Positions 13,181-26,699 of a stretch of DNA of 27,279 nucleotides are shown here, piece after piece. This DNA is from a virus, in the IMG/VR virus record IMGVR_UViG_3300029258_002211, positions 1 to 27,279 of that record; one strand, 5' to 3'. The notes below the pieces were generated by a model that searched no databases, had not been told where the DNA came from, and saw only the letters and a list, made by a program, of their open reading frames with translations. How positions within the stretch are numbered: the first letter of the stretch is position 1; the number at the start of each line of letters is the position of its first letter. A program made the translations under genes and the position numbers.

Positions 13181-15046
13181 TTAAACAAGCTCTTTTCCCA
13201 TTGCATCTGCCATTTGCGCAATGGCAAATTCGGCAAGCTCATCTGCGCTCACTTCTCCCCGCCGATATTTGCTGATAGCGATAGCCAGCACAGCCTCGGC
13301 AGTGCCTTCTTCCGGCGGTGGAAGCGTGTCCTCTCCGCTCGGCTTTTCTCCCTGTTCTACTGCCTTGGTTTTCGGTACCTCAATGCCAAACGCTTCGTCA
13401 GTCGTCATATCGCCTGCCCCTGCCACGCCCAATGCCTGCAAGCTCACGCGCCACAGTTGCGCCAGGATACGCCGACCAGTTTCCAGCGGAATGACACCGC
13501 CCTCGACCAGCGGCGAAAGCGACGTGTTGACCAGTTGTCCGATAGCCTTCACCACGTCGGGGAAATCAGACAGACTGAACGAGTCGATGTTGACCTCACA
13601 CGTCCATTCTCCGAACGACACGTTGCCGTATTTCTCTTTGAGTCCAATGACAATGCGTGCCATCTTGCGGAACTGCGCCGCCCAGAACGTCTTGTACCGA
13701 AAGAAAAGCATGGACTGGCTTTTGTCCATCGCCAGCGCGGTCGCGTAACGCATCACGTCCAGGCCAGCCGATGACGGGTACAACCCCTCCCCCAACAACG
13801 CATGCCAGGCGAAAATGTCATTGTCTGTTTTGGCATCACCCGCACCGGTGGACATCGGCAAATCTTCTACGTCTATTGCTTGGTTCATCACCTCAGACGA
13901 CCCACCAAGCGGTGGCGGATTCGTGTCGTAGGCGCTAGAAGATTGAGATAGATTAGATGCAATGACACTCTTGACTGCCGATACAGCCCGGCTACCACCC
14001 TTCGTTTTGTACCGCCGCACGAAAGCAGCCTTGCTCTCACTCACGGCTAAGCGGGATTCCATAAATCGCCGGTGCGCTTTCAGCCATGGCCCGCCGGTTG
14101 TGGACAGCGGCCAGCCCCACAGGTCGTTGTCTTCCTTGTGGTTGTGGTGAATGTGCTGAACACACACAACAGATCGTGGGTGATCATCGCCACCCAATGT
14201 CGCACCGTCGTCTATCTTACGTCCCAGATCAGCTCGGTATGCACCGCGTGGCAGTACCGTCTCTGCCAGCGTCTTGTCGCCGCCTCGGTACGGTTCGTCT
14301 AGAATACCGGCAAGGAAGGCTTGCCAGTCGGGATAGTACCAGGTTCGGTGTGCACCACCGGTCGCCGTCGCCGACGACGTCTCCGTCCATTCACGCTTAT
14401 AGAATAGCGGACGCTTGGCGTTGTCAGGGTGGGGAATGATCTCGGCGATTTGTGCCGGGTCAATTTCGGCGATTGTCGTTTCCCCGTCCAGCGTGGAGGC
14501 ATAATAGGCTAAAAATCGGTTGCCCTTCACCAGCAGCCAGTTGCTCAGCTCCTGGATGCAATCCGTCGCCAGCACAGCCTGATTACGATCCGCTTCCCAG
14601 AACTCCTGGAATACAGCATCCGGGTCGTGGTCGCCGGACAGCTTCTCTAGGGGTTGCGCCGTCTCAGTCACATCCTCGATTGGCGATAGAGACACCTGCA
14701 CGCTCTCACCGAGTCCCCAACTTGTCCACAGCCACACTGACCATTGGGCTACCGGGCTGTATTTATACAGACGCTCAGATTCATTGACGGCCCGCTCTCG
14801 TTCAGCAGCGTTGGGGAAAGCATACCCAATGGAATCCCAACCAAGCTGTTGCAGGTAATCGGTGATGAGCCACGGGTCTACCTCACCCAGGTTACCAAGC
14901 TGGCGCATTAGTTCTTGCGGTGGCAGTGCCCACGGTCCTTCGTAATATGCTTGCTGCATCAGGCGCAGAGTTGCCTGTAGCGTTTCTTGTCTCTGTGCCG
15001 GGAGGCCACCGTTCGCGCCAGCCCACTGTTCAGCTAATGTTGCCAT
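13181..15046 (-). CDS. Phage portal protein
   Basis: This 621-aa protein lies between terminase and minor head genes, the canonical portal position. Its sequence fits: a helical N-terminus, a wing region with LSNWLLVKGNRFLAYYAS, a long helical stem region (LDVMRYATALAMDKSQSMLF), and an acidic C-terminal crown/tail (KPSGEDTLPPPEEGTAEA). Portals form the dodecameric channel for DNA entry at one capsid vertex. It is at the long end of the family range. The ATG has AGGAGAG upstream and overlaps the 72-aa gene by 17 bp. Identification rests on context and overall composition rather than a single motif. Confidence 0.85.
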   Translation of the reverse strand: MATLAEQWAGANGGLPAQRQETLQATLRLMQQAYYEGPWALPPQELMRQLGNLGEVDPWLITDYLQQLGWDSIGYAFPNAAERERAVNESERLYKYSPVAQWSVWLWTSWGLGESVQVSLSPIEDVTETAQPLEKLSGDHDPDAVFQEFWEADRNQAVLATDCIQELSNWLLVKGNRFLAYYASTLDGETTIAEIDPAQIAEIIPHPDNAKRPLFYKREWTETSSATATGGAHRTWYYPDWQAFLAGILDEPYRGGDKTLAETVLPRGAYRADLGRKIDDGATLGGDDHPRSVVCVQHIHHNHKEDNDLWGWPLSTTGGPWLKAHRRFMESRLAVSESKAAFVRRYKTKGGSRAVSAVKSVIASNLSQSSSAYDTNPPPLGGSSEVMNQAIDVEDLPMSTGAGDAKTDNDIFAWHALLGEGLYPSSAGLDVMRYATALAMDKSQSMLFFRYKTFWAAQFRKMARIVIGLKEKYGNVSFGEWTCEVNIDSFSLSDFPDVVKAIGQLVNTSLSPLVEGGVIPLETGRRILAQLWRVSLQALGVAGAGDMTTDEAFGIEVPKTKAVEQGEKPSGEDTLPPPEEGTAEAVLAIAISKYRRGEVSADELAEFAIAQMADAMGKELV

Positions 15047-15457: not shown

Positions 15458-16738
15458 TTACCATCCCGGCCCTATCGGTAGTCGCCTGTCTATAACCTCA
15501 GTGCGCTCACCTGGCTGTGTGAGGTAGGCCACAGCGTAACGTAGCGCGTCCAGCATGTGATATGATTCCTTGTCCTCTATCGTTTCTGTCGGATTGCCTC
15601 GTCTGTCCATCTTGCGCCGGTAGTTACCTATTTCACTCATCAGATTGGGGCAGTTATCGTGAATGACCAGGCCAAAGTCTTTGAGCAACTGGTATACCCG
15701 GTCAATCCCTGCCCACACGTCTGAGATAGGTGGTTCGAGGAGCGGGATGCCAGCCCCGGCCCAGTCCGCCCGTGCCTGTCGCTCGCTTGGCCCTCCACCC
15801 ACCCAGGCAAATATCGTTTCACCCTTGCTCGCCCGGAGAATGTTATCGACATGTCCAGGTGTTGTTTCTCCAAATTCCTGATAATATTCCCTGTAGATAT
15901 TGAGCACGCCGTTTTGTGTATCCCACGCCAACCACACGGCGGCGATGTATGCGCCGAACGGGTCTATGCCAACGGCTCGCGGCCACAGTGCAGGTGGGGC
16001 GAAGTGCTTGACGACGTGCTTGTGCTCGTCGAATACGTCATAGATGCTTCCCTCCGGCGCAGCCCACAGGCCGTGGTAGAGGCGCAGCAGGCGTGATCCG
16101 GTCATGTTGCGCAGGCGGGATAGTGACCGCCTGCCTTGTTCTGTCCACGCTTCTTGTGTATGATCCCACAGAGTGGGATTGTCTTTGTGTGTGGACTCGA
16201 AGAACGTCAGCGGCCCATCCTTGGCACGTGTTCTTATCCAGTGCGTTGGAGGCCCAGGGTTGCAGTCTCCGATTAGCTGTGTGTACGGCATTACGGCTCC
16301 GCGTCCCGTGACGGGTCGGGTTAGGTACTCCCAGTCTGGTAGGCTCAACTCCTCGACCTGGTTGATGTATATCACATCTCTTTCGGATGATAATGTCTTG
16401 CCGGGGTCGTCCATCCCGCCAATCCAAATGCGGCTACCGTTGGGGTAGTCAATCCATTGTGGATAGCCACCGCCGTAGATGCGCACACCAGGTCCATGAT
16501 CTGTGAGTAGGTCTCTTTTTAAGGTGTGAAAGACAGTGCCGGTGATGTCAGTTTTGCGTTTGCGGATGATGGCAAGTTGTGCGTTGGGGTATTTGTAGGC
16601 CAGGGTGTGTAGCTTCCAGAGCATTGCCAGCGTTTTGCCTGTCTCGGCAGGCCCTGATAGAATGACCTCCGGCTCCCGGCATAGAATCGCATCGCGGTTG
16701 CCACCATAGAATGAATAAGGTGTCTCTGGTGTGTTCAC
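15458..16738 (-). CDS. terL: Terminase large subunit (TerL)
   Basis: This 426-aa protein is the ATPase/nuclease motor that packages DNA into procapsids. The ATPase domain has Walker A SGPAETGKT (28-36) and Walker B VIYINQVEEL (122-131) with the catalytic glutamate pair. The RNase-H-like nuclease domain starts at AVGIDPFGAYIAAVWL (about 255-270, metal-binding D259) and ends with the conserved aspartate in YHMLDALRYAVAYL near residue 400. It starts at a GTG overlapping the small terminase stop (GTGA). The length is normal. It ends in LPIGPGW, encoded by a sequence also found at the end of the minor head gene. Confidence 0.95.
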   Translation of the reverse strand: MNTPETPYSFYGGNRDAILCREPEVILSGPAETGKTLAMLWKLHTLAYKYPNAQLAIIRKRKTDITGTVFHTLKRDLLTDHGPGVRIYGGGYPQWIDYPNGSRIWIGGMDDPGKTLSSERDVIYINQVEELSLPDWEYLTRPVTGRGAVMPYTQLIGDCNPGPPTHWIRTRAKDGPLTFFESTHKDNPTLWDHTQEAWTEQGRRSLSRLRNMTGSRLLRLYHGLWAAPEGSIYDVFDEHKHVVKHFAPPALWPRAVGIDPFGAYIAAVWLAWDTQNGVLNIYREYYQEFGETTPGHVDNILRASKGETIFAWVGGGPSERQARADWAGAGIPLLEPPISDVWAGIDRVYQLLKDFGLVIHDNCPNLMSEIGNYRRKMDRRGNPTETIEDKESYHMLDALRYAVAYLTQPGERTEVIDRRLPIGPGW

Positions 16739-17082
16739 AGTTCATCCGGGTTGATGTTTCCGGTGTATTTGATGACGATCTCGCCGCTTTGTTCAGTTTT
16801 TTGTGTTTGAGTATAGCCACGCATGGCACCTTTCATTTTCAGGTACCACTTTGCGGTATGGACGTCTCTCTCATCACAGATGCTACTGTGAATCACAGAC
16901 TCAGCAACGTCAACAAGTCTTTCACATTCATCGTCATAAGCTCGCTTGACCGTGCTGTGTCCCTCAATCCACCGCTTGGCTGTGTTCCACTCACAGCCAA
17001 CACGCTCAGCTATAGTAGTGATAATGCCACCACTACCATCTATTGCATTTATAAATTGCTGAGCAGTATATTTAGAACCCAT
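16735..17082 (-). CDS. Terminase small subunit-like protein
   Basis: This 115-aa protein is directly upstream of and coupled to terL. The N-terminus (QQFINAIDGSGGIITTIAER, then VGCEWNTAKRWI) is a helix-turn-helix of the type used by small terminases to bind packaging sites, followed by a helical oligomerisation-like segment (AYDDECERLVDVAESVIHSS) and a short beta tail (GEIVIKYTGNINPDEL). It would recognise phage DNA at a pac or cos site. The noncoding 166 bp upstream is a candidate for that site. A generic HTH regulator is the alternative, but the context favours TerS. Confidence 0.82.
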   Translation of the reverse strand: MGSKYTAQQFINAIDGSGGIITTIAERVGCEWNTAKRWIEGHSTVKRAYDDECERLVDVAESVIHSSICDERDVHTAKWYLKMKGAMRGYTQTQKTEQSGEIVIKYTGNINPDEL

Positions 17083-17110: not shown

Positions 17111-17139
17111 TTGACATTCTATCCAATCCAGTGTATAAT
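17111..17139 (+). promoter_or_regulatory. Perfect-consensus sigma70-type promoter, plus strand
   Basis: TTGACA at 17111-17116 and TATAAT at 17134-17139, with a 17-bp spacer. Both boxes are exact. It is the only convincing plus-strand promoter in a window whose protein genes are all on the minus strand. It points away from the small terminase gene; predicted start is about 17146. Confidence 0.8.
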
Positions 17140-20679: not shown

Positions 20680-20994
20680 CTAACCCCCACCCTTTATCGG
20701 CCCATCGTTCATCATCTCATCTACCTCCAACGCAATCTGGTGTTGCGCTGCTATCTCAAGCTCGCGCCGCTCCAGGCTATTCTCTTCCGTTTCCTCTATC
20801 TGGTCGGCAATACTCAGTACAGTGGCCGAATCCACCGCTCCGTTCAGCAACTTTTTGGCTGTCGCCAGCAGGAACCGTAGCGCGCGCAGATACCACGCCA
20901 GGTCACGGCGTGCCCGAATGCGAGCGGCGCGGACGGCAGCGATAGGGTCACCTTGACTACTTTCTGTAGTCGACTGACTATTTTTTGTAGTCAT
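20680..20994 (-). CDS. Hypothetical helical protein, 104 aa
   Basis: Not recognised. It has a Ser/Thr/Gln-rich N-terminus followed by helical basic and acidic segments (AARIRARRDLAWYLRALRFL, then QIEETEENSLERRELEIAAQ). It is probably a soluble coiled-coil-like protein. It overlaps the M23 peptidase stop by 4 bp (ATGA). The first 13 codons coincide with two tandem inverted repeats that could form adjacent hairpins at the translation start. Confidence 0.6.
   Translation of the reverse strand: MTTKNSQSTTESSQGDPIAAVRAARIRARRDLAWYLRALRFLLATAKKLLNGAVDSATVLSIADQIEETEENSLERRELEIAAQHQIALEVDEMMNDGPIKGGG
20955..20992 (-). promoter_or_regulatory. Tandem inverted repeats over a start codon
   Basis: Two adjacent dyads are present: GACTAC / GTAGTC (20955-20960, 20966-20971) and GACTA / TAGTC (20976-20980, 20988-20992). 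They share the same half-site and lie immediately after the ATG of the 104-aa gene. They could be two operator sites or two mRNA hairpins; no promoter is visible just upstream. Confidence 0.55.
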
Positions 20995-21620
20995 TTCTTC
21001 TTCTTCAACATCGCGTCCACCACCGCCGGGTCCAGGTGTGCTTTTAGCACTGGCACCGGGTCAATCCATCGTATGTCTGGATGCTTGGTGAACCACCAGT
21101 GCGGTTGAAACGGGTTGCGTGCCATATCAAGATGCAAGTGGTCACCACCTGCCCCCAATGTGTAGTTTCCGATATGACCAATGCAATCGTCAACCATGAT
21201 CATATCGCCAGGCTTCCAATCGCAGCTTTCCAGATGCCAATAGCGCACCCACAGGGGCGTGCCGTCGTGTTCTATCTCGATGACCACGCCGCCGAGGTAG
21301 CTGTTGCTGTACCCGGCAGCGTAGACGGTGCCCGAAGCAATCGCCCACACTGGCTGGCCTCGATCTACATCACCCCACGGATAGTGGTCTACATTTTCGT
21401 CAATACCGGTATGGCAATAGCCATCATTCTTCGCACCAGTCGTGTCGTGCCACGCCGCGCAATACCATTCCTCAGTTGGATACTCACACGAACCAACCGG
21501 ATATGCCCACCCCTCTTCTGGCTCCGGCTCCTGTGCCAGCAGTATCCGCAGCCGAATCGCCGCATTTTCACAGGCGGTGGCAACAGCAGAAATTTCTGCG
21601 ATTTGGTCAAGAGTCATCAT
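20991..21620 (-). CDS. M23-family metallopeptidase, probable endolysin
   Basis: This 209-aa protein has the LytM/M23 zinc site: CHTGIDEN (H70, D74), YWHLESCDWKPGD (H129) and GDHLHLDM (H161, H163). Around them is the usual beta-sandwich (VWAIASGTVYAAGYSNSYLG, VVIEIEH). M23 enzymes cut peptide crosslinks in peptidoglycan. The N-terminus is a short helix without a signal peptide, so export would depend on a holin such as the candidate at 23424-23705. The C-terminus ends in four lysines. The gene is in the lysis region and overlaps neighbours on both sides. A virion-associated hydrolase is the alternative. Confidence 0.85.
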   Translation of the reverse strand: MMTLDQIAEISAVATACENAAIRLRILLAQEPEPEEGWAYPVGSCEYPTEEWYCAAWHDTTGAKNDGYCHTGIDENVDHYPWGDVDRGQPVWAIASGTVYAAGYSNSYLGGVVIEIEHDGTPLWVRYWHLESCDWKPGDMIMVDDCIGHIGNYTLGAGGDHLHLDMARNPFQPHWWFTKHPDIRWIDPVPVLKAHLDPAVVDAMLKKKK

Positions 21621-22758: not shown

Positions 22759-23331
22759 CTATCCGCCTATCCCGCTCCCGGCGAGTGGTCCAGTTTTGCG
22801 CCGCTTCCGGGTCACTGGATCGTAGCCGAGTTCTTCTCGCACCCACCCGCACAGGTCCTCATACTGCCGCTGCAGGGAGGCAATGATTTCGTCTCGGCGC
22901 TTGACCTGCGCCTTCAGCGACTCGATCTCTGCCGCTTGCTCTCGTTGCACTACTAGCATTTCTTCTATTGTAGCATTGAGCTTGTCACGGTCACGTTGCA
23001 CCTTTTCAAGCTCGCGTTCGAGTATGACGACGTGGCCCATCATGTCGTTAGCGTGTTTGCGTGCAGCTTCCCGCTCTGCCGTTCGCTCCGTTCGTTCTTG
23101 TGCTATCAACTCCTGCATTTGGTCCAGGAGCTCATTCGACGTAGCGGTAAGCCGAGCAGACAATTCAGCATCTGTGAGCGCACGTGTGCGGTTGGCCTCG
23201 GCGGTGGCAAGATCGGTCTGTGCATCGAGATGGCGCGCTTCCGGTCTGGCCTTGAGTAGTGCCACAATGGCCGTGGCAAGCGCGCCAATGCTGGCTAGCG
23301 CAGTGATGATCTGTGCGACGTCAGGAGGCAT
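22759..23331 (-). CDS. Membrane-anchored coiled-coil protein (spanin- or tail-chaperone-like position)
   Basis: This 190-aa protein has an N-terminal hydrophobic segment (IITALASIGALATAIVALL, about 8-26), then a long heptad-rich region from about 35 to 160 (AQERTERTAEREAARKHAND, ELEKVQRDRDKLNATIEEML). It ends with a basic tail. An N-in anchor plus a periplasmic coiled coil is the layout of inner-membrane spanins, and it lies between a holin-like and an endolysin-like gene. However, no outer-membrane partner lipoprotein is nested in it. AGGAGG lies 6 nt before the ATG. Confidence 0.6.
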   Translation of the reverse strand: MPPDVAQIITALASIGALATAIVALLKARPEARHLDAQTDLATAEANRTRALTDAELSARLTATSNELLDQMQELIAQERTERTAEREAARKHANDMMGHVVILERELEKVQRDRDKLNATIEEMLVVQREQAAEIESLKAQVKRRDEIIASLQRQYEDLCGWVREELGYDPVTRKRRKTGPLAGSGIGG

Positions 23332-23423: not shown

Positions 23424-23705
23424 CTATTTCTTGGTGATAAGATACACGGCCTGGTTGGCGATGAGCGCCTCGATGACCAGCTTGACCAGCCCAAGCGCTC
23501 CGGCCTTGTCACACACGATCATATCCACGATCCCGCCACAGGCCAAGCCGAAGACAGACAGCCCGACGGCGACCAGAAGACCCCCCATCACCATCTGTTT
23601 GTAGCTGGATTCCAATCCTTCAAACCAACCTTTGACGCCGGGGACATACGAGAAGAAAAGTGAAAGCACAATACCAGCAATGGCACTCAGTTCGTCAGCA
23701 GACAT
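23424..23705 (-). CDS. Holin-like small membrane protein
   Basis: This 93-aa protein has an excellent ribosome-binding site (AGGAGGT 6 nt before ATG). It has a weakly hydrophobic N-terminal segment (LSAIAGIVLSLFFSYVPGV), a strong span (MVMGGLLVAVGLSVFGLACG followed by GIVDMIV) and a third hydrophobic stretch (LGLVKLVIEALIANQAVYLI) before a double-lysine end. Size, span number and position as first gene of the lysis group fit a holin, which would permeabilise the membrane to release the M23 endolysin. It is the first gene downstream of the promoter-terminator leader at 23800-23923. Confidence 0.65.
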   Translation of the reverse strand: MSADELSAIAGIVLSLFFSYVPGVKGWFEGLESSYKQMVMGGLLVAVGLSVFGLACGGIVDMIVCDKAGALGLVKLVIEALIANQAVYLITKK

Positions 23706-23799
23706 TTCTTACCTCCTGTGTGAAACTTGATTTTTGACAAGATGAGATGATAGCAAGCCCACCACCACCCCATACCGCCATCCTCCCAAGATTGAGAAC

Positions 23800-23827
23800 A
23801 AAAAAACCCCACGCATATTGCGTGGGG
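23800..23827 (-). terminator. Strong intrinsic terminator
   Basis: A perfect 9-bp stem (23807-23815 with 23819-23827, 3-nt loop) is followed on the minus strand by seven T (bases 23800-23806 on plus are A). It ends the ParB-like operon and would also terminate RNAs started at the promoter at 23894-23923. Confidence 0.93.
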
Positions 23828-23845
23828 CCTACTGCTCCCTGACTC

Positions 23846-23869
23846 GCACCGGGCCAACTGCGCCGGTGC
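23846..23869 (-). other. Hairpin upstream of terminator
   Basis: A 7-bp GC-rich stem (23846-23852 with 23863-23869, 10-nt loop) lies between the promoter start site and the terminator hairpin. It has no T-run of its own; it may be a pause or antiterminator-recognition element. Confidence 0.6.
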
Positions 23870-23893
23870 TGCTATTCGATTGTTATATTGAAG

Positions 23894-23923
23894 ATTATAC
23901 CACGATTATGAGTAATATGTCAA
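23894..23923 (-). promoter_or_regulatory. Consensus sigma70-type promoter, minus strand
   Basis: TTGACA (minus strand of 23918-23923), an 18-bp spacer, then TATAAT (23894-23899); both boxes are exact. The -35 box contains the stop codon of the ParB-like gene. It fires toward the two hairpins and the lysis genes. Confidence 0.85.
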
Positions 23924-24468
23924 GTACTGTGCTTGACTTTCTCATAGTGCGCGCAGGTCGTGCAATCACCACCTTGTGCGTATACCTTGCACACGTGGCT
24001 TTTGTCGTATGTGCACGGCTTGCGCTCCCACGCTGGCCGTCCGCTAGGGAGCGTGGGCGAATAGAAAGCGGGCAAGGTCTCGACACCTGCTTCCCGTGCC
24101 GCCAGCCAGCGTCGTCGGTTTATGCTAACCAGATGTCCATCTTTCGCGTTCTGTACCACGAAGATGGGCGGGGGGCGGTGTCCCTCTTTGAACCACTCGA
24201 TGTACTGCTGAGTGGTTTTGTACCGAAGGGCGAATTCCCATTCGCCCTCGCTTGGACGAACCTCGTCAACACCCACATCGACCAGCGCGTAAATCAGGCC
24301 GTCCTTGTCCATCGCCCAATCGTAATCGGGCACGTAGTCGGGACGGTTCAGCTTCTGGCTCTCGCGCTGAAACGGGTAACGGTCGTAGTTCTGCCGCGCC
24401 CGCTCCAAATCCACGTTGGCCTCGATCCACTCTTGAGTGATGTCATTAGCCTGGTCTATGGTCAGCAT
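23920..24468 (-). CDS. ParB/sulfiredoxin-like domain protein with Cys-rich tail
   Basis: This 182-aa protein's middle (about residues 95-145) has the ParB-like layout: PPIFVVQNAKDGHLVSINRR followed by RWLAAREAGVETLPAF. That matches the strand, -DG-H--NG-RR-, helix and A--AG pattern of the ParB/Srx fold (nucleases, serine kinases, DNA-binding proteins). It lacks the classical GERR helix. The C-terminus has four cysteines and a histidine (CTYDKSHVC, then CTTCAHYEKVK), probably zinc-binding. The ATG at 24468 is preceded by GGAG. It is the last gene of the operon driven by the 25031-25059 promoter. Its molecular function is open; regulation or DNA modification are candidates. Confidence 0.62.
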   Translation of the reverse strand: MLTIDQANDITQEWIEANVDLERARQNYDRYPFQRESQKLNRPDYVPDYDWAMDKDGLIYALVDVGVDEVRPSEGEWEFALRYKTTQQYIEWFKEGHRPPPIFVVQNAKDGHLVSINRRRWLAAREAGVETLPAFYSPTLPSGRPAWERKPCTYDKSHVCKVYAQGGDCTTCAHYEKVKHST

Positions 24469-24694
24469 CGTCACTCCACTCTCCAATCATCAAAGCCGCG
24501 AATCCAGCACGAGCAGTCAAAACGTCAATGTACATGATAGCCTGTGCATCGCGTGGATTTTTTGGATCAAGTCTACGGGCCAGGTTGCGCACCCGGCGCG
24601 TAAATCCTGCCCTGCGGGCCTTCCCGTATAGATACAGCCCGCCAGTGTCCACCCACTCCCTGTACAATTTCCTTGCTGCCTCGACTTTGTCCAT
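24446..24694 (-). CDS. Hypothetical basic helical protein, 82 aa
   Basis: Not recognised. It is helical and strongly basic in the middle (LYGKARRAGFTRRVRNLARR), followed by AQAIMYIDVLTARAGFAALM. It may bind nucleic acid. AGGTG lies before the ATG. It is the second gene of the three-gene unit and overlaps the ParB-like gene by 23 bp. Confidence 0.6.
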   Translation of the reverse strand: MDKVEAARKLYREWVDTGGLYLYGKARRAGFTRRVRNLARRLDPKNPRDAQAIMYIDVLTARAGFAALMIGEWSDDADHRPG

Positions 24695-24702
24695 CGTTTC
24701 AC

Positions 24703-25002
24703 CTACTTCCAGAACCAGCCGCGCTTGCGGCTGTATCCCAACGTGGCCTCCGCGAGAACCTCGCGCCCGATCTCGCGCCTGCGAGTTACTTTGTGACCTG
24801 GTCCTGCCCCCGCGTCAAGATGCGTGGTACTCTCGTATAAATCTACCATAACTCTGACGATCTGCACCGTGTCACCCTTGCGGATGTCGGCGAACCTGTA
24901 AGCCTCTTCCGCAGGTGGTAGCTCACCAAAACGAGCTTGTGGGTGCCACTCGGCGATATTTGCTGTCTTGTTGTATATCTCGTGTACTGTGCTGATTGCC
25001 AT
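24703..25002 (-). CDS. Hypothetical protein, 99 aa, first gene of promoter unit
   Basis: Not recognised. It is a soluble, mixed-fold protein (AYRFADIRKGDTVQIVRVMV, then DLYESTTHLDAGAGPGHKVT) with a basic C-terminus rich in Arg, Lys and aromatic residues. The DIRKGDTVQIVRVMVD stretch looks like an SH3-like barrel strand pair. The ATG follows a G-rich ribosome-binding site and lies about 22 nt after the predicted transcription start, so it is the promoter-proximal gene. Confidence 0.62.
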   Translation of the reverse strand: MAISTVHEIYNKTANIAEWHPQARFGELPPAEEAYRFADIRKGDTVQIVRVMVDLYESTTHLDAGAGPGHKVTRRREIGREVLAEATLGYSRKRGWFWK

Positions 25003-25030
25003 CGTCTGCCCCCCTCTCTAAGATGACATT

Positions 25031-25059
25031 ATTATAACAGATTACTAGCCAGTTGTCAA
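25031..25059 (-). promoter_or_regulatory. Perfect-consensus sigma70-type promoter, minus strand
   Basis: TTGACA (minus strand of 25054-25059), exactly 17 bp, TATAAT (25031-25036). It is preceded upstream by a terminator, so it starts an independent operon (24703-25002, 24446-24694, 23920-24468). The spacer resembles that of the promoter at 25603-25631. Confidence 0.9.
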
Positions 25060-25080
25060 GTGTTTGGTCTGAAACTGGCT
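25047..25080. promoter_or_regulatory. 8-bp inverted repeat around the -35 box (candidate operator)
   Basis: AGCCAGTT at 25047-25054 and AACTGGCT at 25073-25080 are exact inverted halves separated by 18 bp and flank the -35 box. The layout suits a dimeric repressor. No footprint or repressor gene is visible in the window. Confidence 0.45.
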
Positions 25081-25222: not shown

Positions 25223-25573
25223 TCACACATATCGTTCAGTCCAATCCTCTACCTCCTCTCCTAAGTCCTCTGCCTCACCGGCCCTGACGTGCGCGGCGAG
25301 GTGTTGAGCACCGGGTCCGCCGTATGCTATTTCCTGTCCACAGATCGGGCAGATGATACTCGTGGTCTGCCGCTCGACCGGTTCAGGCTCTCGTGCCCGT
25401 ACCAGCTCGATGTCCCCACGTGCGATCTCTTTCACCAACGACCGCCAGGATGGTCGGCCTGCTCTCGGACCGGTTGGCGGACACGTGCCGAGTTCATCCG
25501 CCAGCCGCTCTAACTTCTCCCATTCTTCGGGCCACAGAACCAGTGACCGCCGCTTCTGTTCTCCTCTTGACAT
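25223..25573 (-). CDS. Putative DNA-binding protein with C2H2-like zinc finger, 116 aa
   Basis: The N-terminal region (KRRSLVLWPEEWEKLERLAD) has the strand-helix look of ribbon-helix-helix proteins, though this is not certain. Residues about 74-93 form a C2H2-type finger: CPICG... followed by HLAAH (spacing roughly C-x2-C-x12-H-x3-H). The acidic C-terminus (EAEDLGEEVEDWTERYV) is probably flexible. GGAGGG precedes the ATG. The gene has its own promoter and terminator, so it is a single-gene unit, and it is a good candidate for a small phage transcription regulator. Confidence 0.6.
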   Translation of the reverse strand: MSRGEQKRRSLVLWPEEWEKLERLADELGTCPPTGPRAGRPSWRSLVKEIARGDIELVRAREPEPVERQTTSIICPICGQEIAYGGPGAQHLAAHVRAGEAEDLGEEVEDWTERYV

Positions 25574-25602
25574 ACCTTCCCTCCTATGTCAGCTATGGTG
25601 TC

Positions 25603-25631
25603 AGTGTACCACATAACTAGTCACTTGTCAA
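25603..25631 (-). promoter_or_regulatory. Sigma70-type promoter, minus strand
   Basis: TTGACA (minus strand of 25626-25631), 17 bp, TACACT (25603-25608; 4 of 6 consensus). The -35 box overlaps the end of the upstream zinc-ribbon gene. The 29-bp element is identical to the 25031-25059 promoter at 22 positions, including 12 of 17 spacer bases. Confidence 0.7.
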
Positions 25632-25866
25632 TACCACCAGAGGGAATACCAGAAGTTCTCCCTGCCAGAAACGGCGGCAAGTCATTCTCCGCACTTCCCG
25701 GCACTGCTGCATTATACCGCAGCAATACGCGCCCGCACTCTGGACATTTGAGCACCAGCCGCCTGCTGTCACACCGATGCGGTGGTAACAGTGATGCGCC
25801 ACAGTGCCCGCAGACTATTCCGGCCTCATCATTGCAATCGAGGCTTTGTTCCTGTACACCATTCAT
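25621..25866 (-). CDS. Small zinc-ribbon protein, 81 aa
   Basis: It has two cysteine knuckles, CGHCG (about 19-23) and CPECG (about 41-45), with CDSRR between them. This gives a four-cysteine zinc ribbon like those of many small phage proteins. The rest is proline- and glycine-rich and probably disordered. A GGAAG element precedes the ATG. A TATAAT-like box without a good -35 lies just upstream (25888-25893). The function is unknown. Confidence 0.62.
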   Translation of the reverse strand: MNGVQEQSLDCNDEAGIVCGHCGASLLPPHRCDSRRLVLKCPECGRVLLRYNAAVPGSAENDLPPFLAGRTSGIPSGGIDK

Positions 25867-25899: not shown

Positions 25900-26699
25900 C
25901 TAATGGCAAGTAGCCCAAAGCGGCAATTGCGACCGTGCTTGCCGCAGCAGGTTGCCAATGCTGGTGCCATTTTTCCACGTGTGGCCTATCTCAACCTCCA
26001 ACTCCGCTGCACGCTGTGCCAGCGCGGGATATTGACGGCAGAAGTTCAGCACCTCATCAGGTCGCGTTTTCAGCGGACAGCACCAGCAACCTACTCGCAT
26101 GGCGTGATGATAAATCGGGTTCAGTTCAATCCCGTGATAGTCAAGGAATTGTGCCACACATCATCCTGTGGCCACCGCAAGATAGGCCGATATACCGGCA
26201 CCTTGTATGCCTTAGCTTCCTTGAATCCTTCATCGTGCGAATCAAACTGTGGTAGTTGTGCCCGTGAATCGCTCTCTTCTGCCCGCTCGCCCATAATGAG
26301 CACGGGGCGCTCAAATTCACGTGCATACAGCCGAGTTGGGAATTGCTTTAGGTACCGCGTACAATACCGCTGCCAGTAACTCGGCCAGCGCCCGCGACCA
26401 CGTACCATTTCAAACAATGTCGGAGCAGTGTACCAGGCAGCGCGGGGCTTCCCGTTGCGCAACGGCGGAAGTGGTCTGTCGCCACTGCGCACGTGCTCAA
26501 TAGAATGACCTAGCACGCCTGCCAAATATTTGAGATACAGCTCGTTCTCAGGCCATCCTGCGCCTGTCGGATTGTGAACTAAGTAAACACGGTCGGACGG
26601 CAATATGTCAAGCGCCCACAGCGCCGTAGCGGTACTATCTTTGCCACCGCTTACTCCAACAATATAGGCCGTAAAGCCTTGAAGCTCTACAGGGATCAT
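25900..26699 (-). pseudogene. PAPS reductase-like PP-loop protein, split by a frameshift
   Basis: The first frame (26699-26121) has the PP-loop VSGGKDSTATALWAL (about 14-28), VYLVHNPTG, and a YWQRYCTRYLKQFP segment, as in phage phosphoadenosine-phosphosulfate-reductase-family proteins. It runs out of frame after RWPQDDVW. The second frame (stop at 25900) continues exactly where it should: AQFLDYHGIELNPIYHHAMR, then VGCWCCPLKTRP with the family's cysteine motif. One missing base near 26146-26150 (tggcac where tgggcac would restore the frame) explains the break. Whole, it would be about 265 aa. A sequencing error, a recent mutation or programmed frameshifting are all possible. The family includes enzymes of sulfur activation and DNA phosphorothioation. 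Confidence 0.85.

Follow-up and report, generated by a model that had tools for sequence, protein, structure and literature searches.

The stretch analysed here (the window) is the complete IMG/VR record IMGVR_UViG_3300029258_002211, a linear fragment of 27,279 bases from an uncultured phage. Its host is probably a member of the Chloroflexota, since the homologues of its holin-like gene in genome contigs all came from Anaerolineae/Chloroflexi genomes. Lysis, terminase and portal genes, together with genes for sugar epimerases and glycosyltransferases, lie on the minus strand downstream of a promoter with a terminator close behind it. The features of this region are as follows.

25621-25866, upstream of 23920-24486: zinc-ribbon protein of another family than the one described below, with a sub-threshold match to a phage translational-regulator family (E 0.18)
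25031-25059, minus strand: second perfect promoter
23920-24486, minus strand: gene with a C-terminal cysteine cluster, candidate regulator, with a weak ParB_N-like resemblance (E 0.067)
23894-23923, minus strand: sigma-70 promoter, TTGACA at 23923-23918, 18-bp spacer, TATAAT at 23899-23894
23872-23882, minus strand: leader 5' motif CAATCGAATAG
23846-23869, minus strand: hairpin 1, GCACCGG-CGCAGUUGGC-CCGGUGC, with a 7-bp stem, a bulged C, 2 bp and the pentaloop AGUUG
23824-23839, minus strand: hairpin 2, with a 3-bp stem, a bulged A, 2 bp and the pentaloop AGUAG
23799-23830, minus strand: intrinsic terminator (tR'-like), CCCCACGC-AAUAU-GCGUGGGG, then seven T
23424-23705, minus strand: holin-like gene (93 aa), the first gene past the terminator, with the Shine-Dalgarno sequence GGAGG
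22759-23331, minus strand: coiled-coil protein of the lysis cassette (190 aa), with weak coiled-coil matches
20991-21620, minus strand: M23 peptidase endolysin (PF01551, 1.7e-13)
16735-17082, minus strand: probable terminase small subunit (115 aa), 48% identical to the product of the gene directly preceding TerL in locus L009
15458-16738, minus strand: terminase large subunit (TerL)
13181-15046, minus strand: portal protein (phrog_10963, 2.4e-21)

No Pfam or PHROG name was obtained for the holin-like family. Elsewhere in the window, a perfect 12/12 sigma-70 promoter was found on the plus strand inside the late region (17111-17139), and a PAPS-reductase-like gene at 25900-26699 (minus strand) appeared to be split by a frameshift into 26121-26699 and 25900-26157.

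An earlier sequence-only reading had placed at this locus a perfect promoter with an 18-bp spacer, a hairpin within about 20 nt of it and a 9-bp hairpin followed by seven T, all ahead of lysis and packaging genes. This was borne out: the minus-strand promoter agreed with the consensus at all 12 positions, hairpin 1 began about 18 nt past the expected start, and the seven T were present. The perfect stem of the terminator comprised 8 rather than 9 bp, lengthened by weaker A-U and G-U pairs (12 pairs at 23830-23804 in the scan). The promoter spacer ends in TGG, with TG preceding the -10 element; a transcript start is expected near 23887, and the predicted RNA from promoter to terminator would measure about 85-90 nt. 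The promoter-then-terminator pair was found only once in the whole window and exceeded what shuffling produced, as 300 window shuffles contained no 12/12 promoter followed by a terminator at 150 nt or less, and 100 shuffles no 10/12 promoter paired with a terminator. The leader, folded over 93 nt, gave a minimum free energy of -41.9 kcal/mol (z -4.9 versus shuffles). Its terminator uses as 5' arm the 3' arm of hairpin 2, so that hairpin 2 and the terminator are mutually exclusive; in folds of the growing RNA, hairpin 2 was present at +68 and displaced by the terminator from +80. No Rfam family reached its cut-off in the window, the best sub-threshold match being anti-hemB, a generic hairpin plus terminator. 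The interval 23706-23799, which the earlier reading had named as a possible site of a separate promoter, contained no good one: between the terminator and the holin-like gene, which starts 94 nt downstream of it, only a weak extended -10 (TGC-TATCAT) was readable.

Upstream of the switch, the second perfect promoter (25059-25031) directly follows a terminator at 25181-25157, which is the ordinary order. This promoter would drive 24703-25002, 24446-24694 and 23920-24486, an operon that would supply a regulator. The stop codon of 23920-24486 overlaps the -35 element of the late promoter, the position held by Q in lambda; the AF2 model of its product was uninformative (pLDDT 33). The spacers of two upstream promoters, P25631 and P25059 (window 25590-25640 and 25020-25066, minus strand), share the motif AnTGnCTAGTnAT, likely a common operator, and the late promoter at 23923 is without it. 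The gene at 25223-25573 (minus strand), with its own extended -10 promoter, encodes a small protein that by eye combines a ribbon-helix-helix with a C-terminal zinc finger (IICPICGQE..H..H) and is a possible regulator.

To place this arrangement among other phages, relatives were sought by several routes. Exact-pattern searches of viral contigs with the upstream 188-aa gene, TerL and the terminator sequence gave no relatives, nor did an INPHARED DNA search, and a portal search of genome contigs returned no matches. Because the nearest TerL relatives (L007-L011) have little in common in the region of the lysis genes, the comparison was based on the holin-like gene instead. Its homologues comprised 32 viral loci and further loci in Anaerolineae genomes. 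With a strict scan, a promoter followed by a terminator was found upstream of 8 of 67 distinct holin-like loci, compared with 1 of 260 control genes drawn from the same loci (p 1.6e-5). Inspected by eye, the order was clear in about 17 loci, namely the window, L099, L103, L104, L108, L112, L113, L124, L128, L139, L162, L164, L167, L168, L170, L171 and L173. It also preceded the terminase genes of the terminase relatives L052 and L081, and in related phages the promoter-into-terminator unit always lay on the late-gene strand. L104 and L124 kept the promoter, a short motif and the T-rich tail, and their terminator stems differ in sequence yet still pair. The comparison of related phages that the earlier reading had called for thus revealed a recurrent order of promoter, leader and terminator. 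This arrangement is common, not universal, since in five loci (L092, L100, L106, L118 and L119) the holin homologue is immediately preceded by a promoter without a terminator, and L087/L093 has a terminator, then a promoter, then the holin homologue.

The DNA that precedes the terminase genes of L081 (L081:727-1043) contains more than one copy of the promoter sequence TTGACAGGCTGGATATAATAAGATTATC; hairpins and T-runs lie between these copies and also follow them. In L117, L148, L152, L155, L157, L158 and L174, the promoters of holin-like or late genes are overlapped by a near-palindrome (GAACAnnTGTGCTAT type) whose resemblance to a LexA/SOS box suggests that some prophages of Anaerolineae are under direct SOS control.

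The strongest clue, overlooked in the earlier reading, is the conserved pattern of the very RNA that links promoter and terminator, with bulged hairpins of which one overlaps the terminator. The leaders of one phage group share CAAnnGAATAGG ... GGAGUUUACCGCCC together with a covarying bulged-A hairpin (P1), a leader captured here as model R1. L164, L171, L167 and L103 have GAATAGG and GGAGTTTACCGCCC in common between promoter and terminator, with one T fewer in L103, and a pattern scan of viral contigs added L172-L179, L183 and L184. Pattern matches in L180-L182 lay inside reading frames and were set aside as chance, as was that in L021. P1 is built as a stem, a bulged A, 2 bp and UUACC, and its covariation score was 0.417 against 0.200 (1 of 500 shuffles; slid versions scored at most 0.15). 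In nearly all group members the terminator takes its 5' arm from the 3' arm of P1. The two structures are therefore mutually exclusive, an anatomy characteristic of attenuators. This version of the leader was found in front of late modules only: before holin/lysis genes in L164, L171, L167, L173 and L183, before scaffold and capsid genes in L172, L176 and L179, and before the portal gene, after TerL, in L174. In L178 the leader and terminator lie among tail genes without an obvious promoter, and the phage of L172 (37.7 kb) carries two leader copies, the second before its terminase genes. The conserved leader matched no Rfam family. The R1-motif pattern was absent from 396 Anaerolineae genomes; 147 genomes from a single family yielded three occurrences, all ahead of holin homologues.

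The window leader consists of CAATCGAATAG followed by two GGnGCAGUnGGCCC hairpins, the second of which overlaps the terminator. Its 5' motif departs from the consensus of the other phages, CAAnnGAATAGG, by a final G changed to C. On both strands of the window, CAAnnGAATAG occurred once, inside the leader and on the right strand, and the top match of model R1 in the window was at 23887-23872 (8.8 bits, E 1.2). The pattern GGnGYn5GCCC had exactly two matches on the two strands, both in the 84-nt leader and on the right strand, where 2.4 chance matches would be expected window-wide from this relaxed motif, written after the window had been viewed. The two copies, GGCGCAGTTGGCCC (23864-23851, hairpin 1) and GGAGCAGTAGGCCC (hairpin 2), are 26 nt apart; for the stricter form common to both, 0.01 chance occurrences would be expected, a form derived from the copies themselves. 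Both fold as stem - bulge - GC - AGUnG - GC - stem, giving hairpins 1 and 2 the common core GG-n-GC-AGUnG-GC-CC. Hairpin 2 is similar in architecture to the R1 bulged-A hairpin (GG-A-GU-UUACC-GC-CC), with the loop AGUAG in place of UUACC and only 3 outer pairs. Kinship of the window leader with the conserved leader, as a diverged relative, is suggestive rather than proven, because the relaxed pattern was made after the window was seen. A bulged-hairpin descriptor was not above chance on unrelated leaders, and the hairpin likeness is therefore claimed for the conserved group and the window only.

Nine contigs of the conserved group, some of them near-duplicates, carry a small zinc-ribbon gene (C-x2-4-C ... 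GG ... CxxCG) that often ends 3-11 nt upstream of the promoter. The nine include all the pre-holin and pre-terminase members with enough upstream DNA, except L103. The gene was not seen on the examined parts of L174/L177, L178, L179 and L103, most of which are fragments; outside the conserved group, its profile was matched by L168 only, which has a different leader. A Fisher test of the co-occurrence of gene and leader was given no weight, as its denominators were rough and entered by hand and the contigs include near-duplicates. The structure model of the zinc ribbon (pLDDT 75) had no PDB match at E ≤ 0.001, and the family had no match in the window. In other loci, small helix-turn-helix (HTH) proteins are encoded directly upstream of the holin-like gene (L115:2678-2923, L116:2655-2915 and L098:1305-1538); the top PHROG match of those in L115 and L116 is annotated as a sigma factor, and the three are candidates for another class of late regulator.

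Taken together, the locus is probably an on/off switch for late genes that is worked through its RNA leader and not by any known lambda-type Q protein. We propose, with moderate confidence, that in this Chloroflexota phage a phage factor from the upstream operon gives read-through, most likely via the nascent leader RNA. RNA polymerase would start at about 23887 throughout infection and halt after 85-90 nt at the terminator, and this halt would keep the lysis, packaging and glycan genes off. Late in infection, the factor would let polymerase pass. Judged from the anatomy, it would most likely act by binding the emerging leader: because the initial portion of the terminator stem is taken up by hairpin 2, holding this hairpin would block formation of the terminator. 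Recognition through RNA is favoured because it is the promoter-terminator RNA that is conserved in pattern. A more specific version is offered tentatively, as a possibility: an undescribed attenuator of Chloroflexota phages, in which a small phage zinc-ribbon protein (or, in the phage of the window, a diverged counterpart) recognises bulged hairpins that precede and overlap promoter-proximal terminators, and thereby switches on several late modules together through RNA-guided antitermination.

The main rival, which we consider rather unlikely, is a DNA-binding antiterminator of the Q/AlpA type, encoded by 23920-24486 or a neighbour in the upstream operon, that binds between or near the -35 and -10 elements and is loaded onto polymerase as soon as initiation is over; the hairpins would be incidental. 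Such a factor would suit both the position of 23920-24486, which ends within the promoter as Q does, and the geometry of the locus, which matches that of alpB in Pseudomonas aeruginosa, where 54 nt separate the transcript start from the terminator tB (PMC7969949). The window also has a -10-like AACAAT at +4 to +9, fitting NANNAT, and small HTH genes lie just upstream in L115, L116 and L098; the -10-like element, however, is not conserved among related leaders. Neither PF03589 nor PF06530 was found in the window, itself a fragment, or in 16 related records, and an hmmscan of the upstream-gene proteins against Pfam, the only search to cover PF06323, matched no Q family (Q families as named in PMC7171158). 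Features common to the leaders lie downstream of the start and are largely RNA structure with covariation, and L178 keeps leader and terminator with no obvious promoter for such a factor. A lambda-type pause element was not conserved among the leaders. The locus had been described as a lambda PR'-tR'-like switch without a recognisable Q-like gene, and these Q-family searches likewise gave no match. The lambda-like late switch is supported as a way of working, the unit recurring before the late genes of related phages, whereas assignment of the locus to the lambda Q system is not supported. RNA-guided antitermination is favoured because the search for a Q protein failed and the shared signal lies in the RNA.

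An ordinary operon end is improbable. The upstream genes do run into the terminator in the same direction, and the terminator could close their operon while the late genes start from the weak extended -10 below it, as in the order of L087/L093; this would leave unexplained both a perfect promoter just before the terminator and the shared leader motifs. Still harder to sustain is action of the two leader hairpins on polymerase without a phage protein, with the terminator leaking or passed by RNA alone, in the manner of the HK022 put RNA, which is about 70 nt long with two stem-loops, putL lying just after PL (PMC9378689). The window leader likewise has two hairpins, yet put is constitutive, which would make the terminator pointless, and the conserved group has one terminator-overlapping hairpin and a linked zinc-ribbon gene. 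A stand-alone gene for a small RNA of about 85-90 nt, placed before the lysis genes by happenstance, is just as hard to credit: although a terminated RNA is predicted under either reading, relatives keep the unit before late operons of differing content with no other strong promoter past the terminator, and one phage has it twice.

To our knowledge, detailed understanding of late-gene antitermination is limited to phages of a few Proteobacteria. A recurrent unit of Anaerolineae phages, in which a covarying hairpin excludes the terminator and to which a zinc-ribbon gene is linked, would represent a separate way of controlling late genes. The finding names a concrete protein and RNA as test objects, and the leader motif marks late operons in uncultured phages.

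In its layout, the locus resembles lambda PR'-tR'/Q, which likewise has a strong promoter and a terminator before a lysis/packaging operon, and here too a candidate regulator gene lies directly upstream. It differs from lambda in the lack of a PF03589 or PF06530 protein and of a conserved pause element, in its paired bulged hairpins overlapping the terminator, and in the repetition of the conserved leader, elsewhere, before several late modules. The window leader is also much shorter than that of lambda. In LicT-type antitermination, the protein keeps a terminator-excluding hairpin in place, but LicT/BglG proteins are not zinc ribbons. In phage Mu, the small zinc-finger protein Com binds a leader hairpin (PMC6483171); Com acts on the translation of mom, however, and the zinc-ribbon family has no significant match to it. 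HK022 put also has two hairpins right after a promoter, and these affect terminators, but put works without a phage protein and on early genes, its sequences appear unrelated, and in the present locus a hairpin overlaps the terminator. The AlpA/alpBCDE system shares the succession of promoter, terminator and lysis genes and needs an antiterminator, AlpA, which binds DNA between the -35 and -10 elements (PMC7969949), whereas here no AlpA relative was recognised and the shared signal is in the leader.
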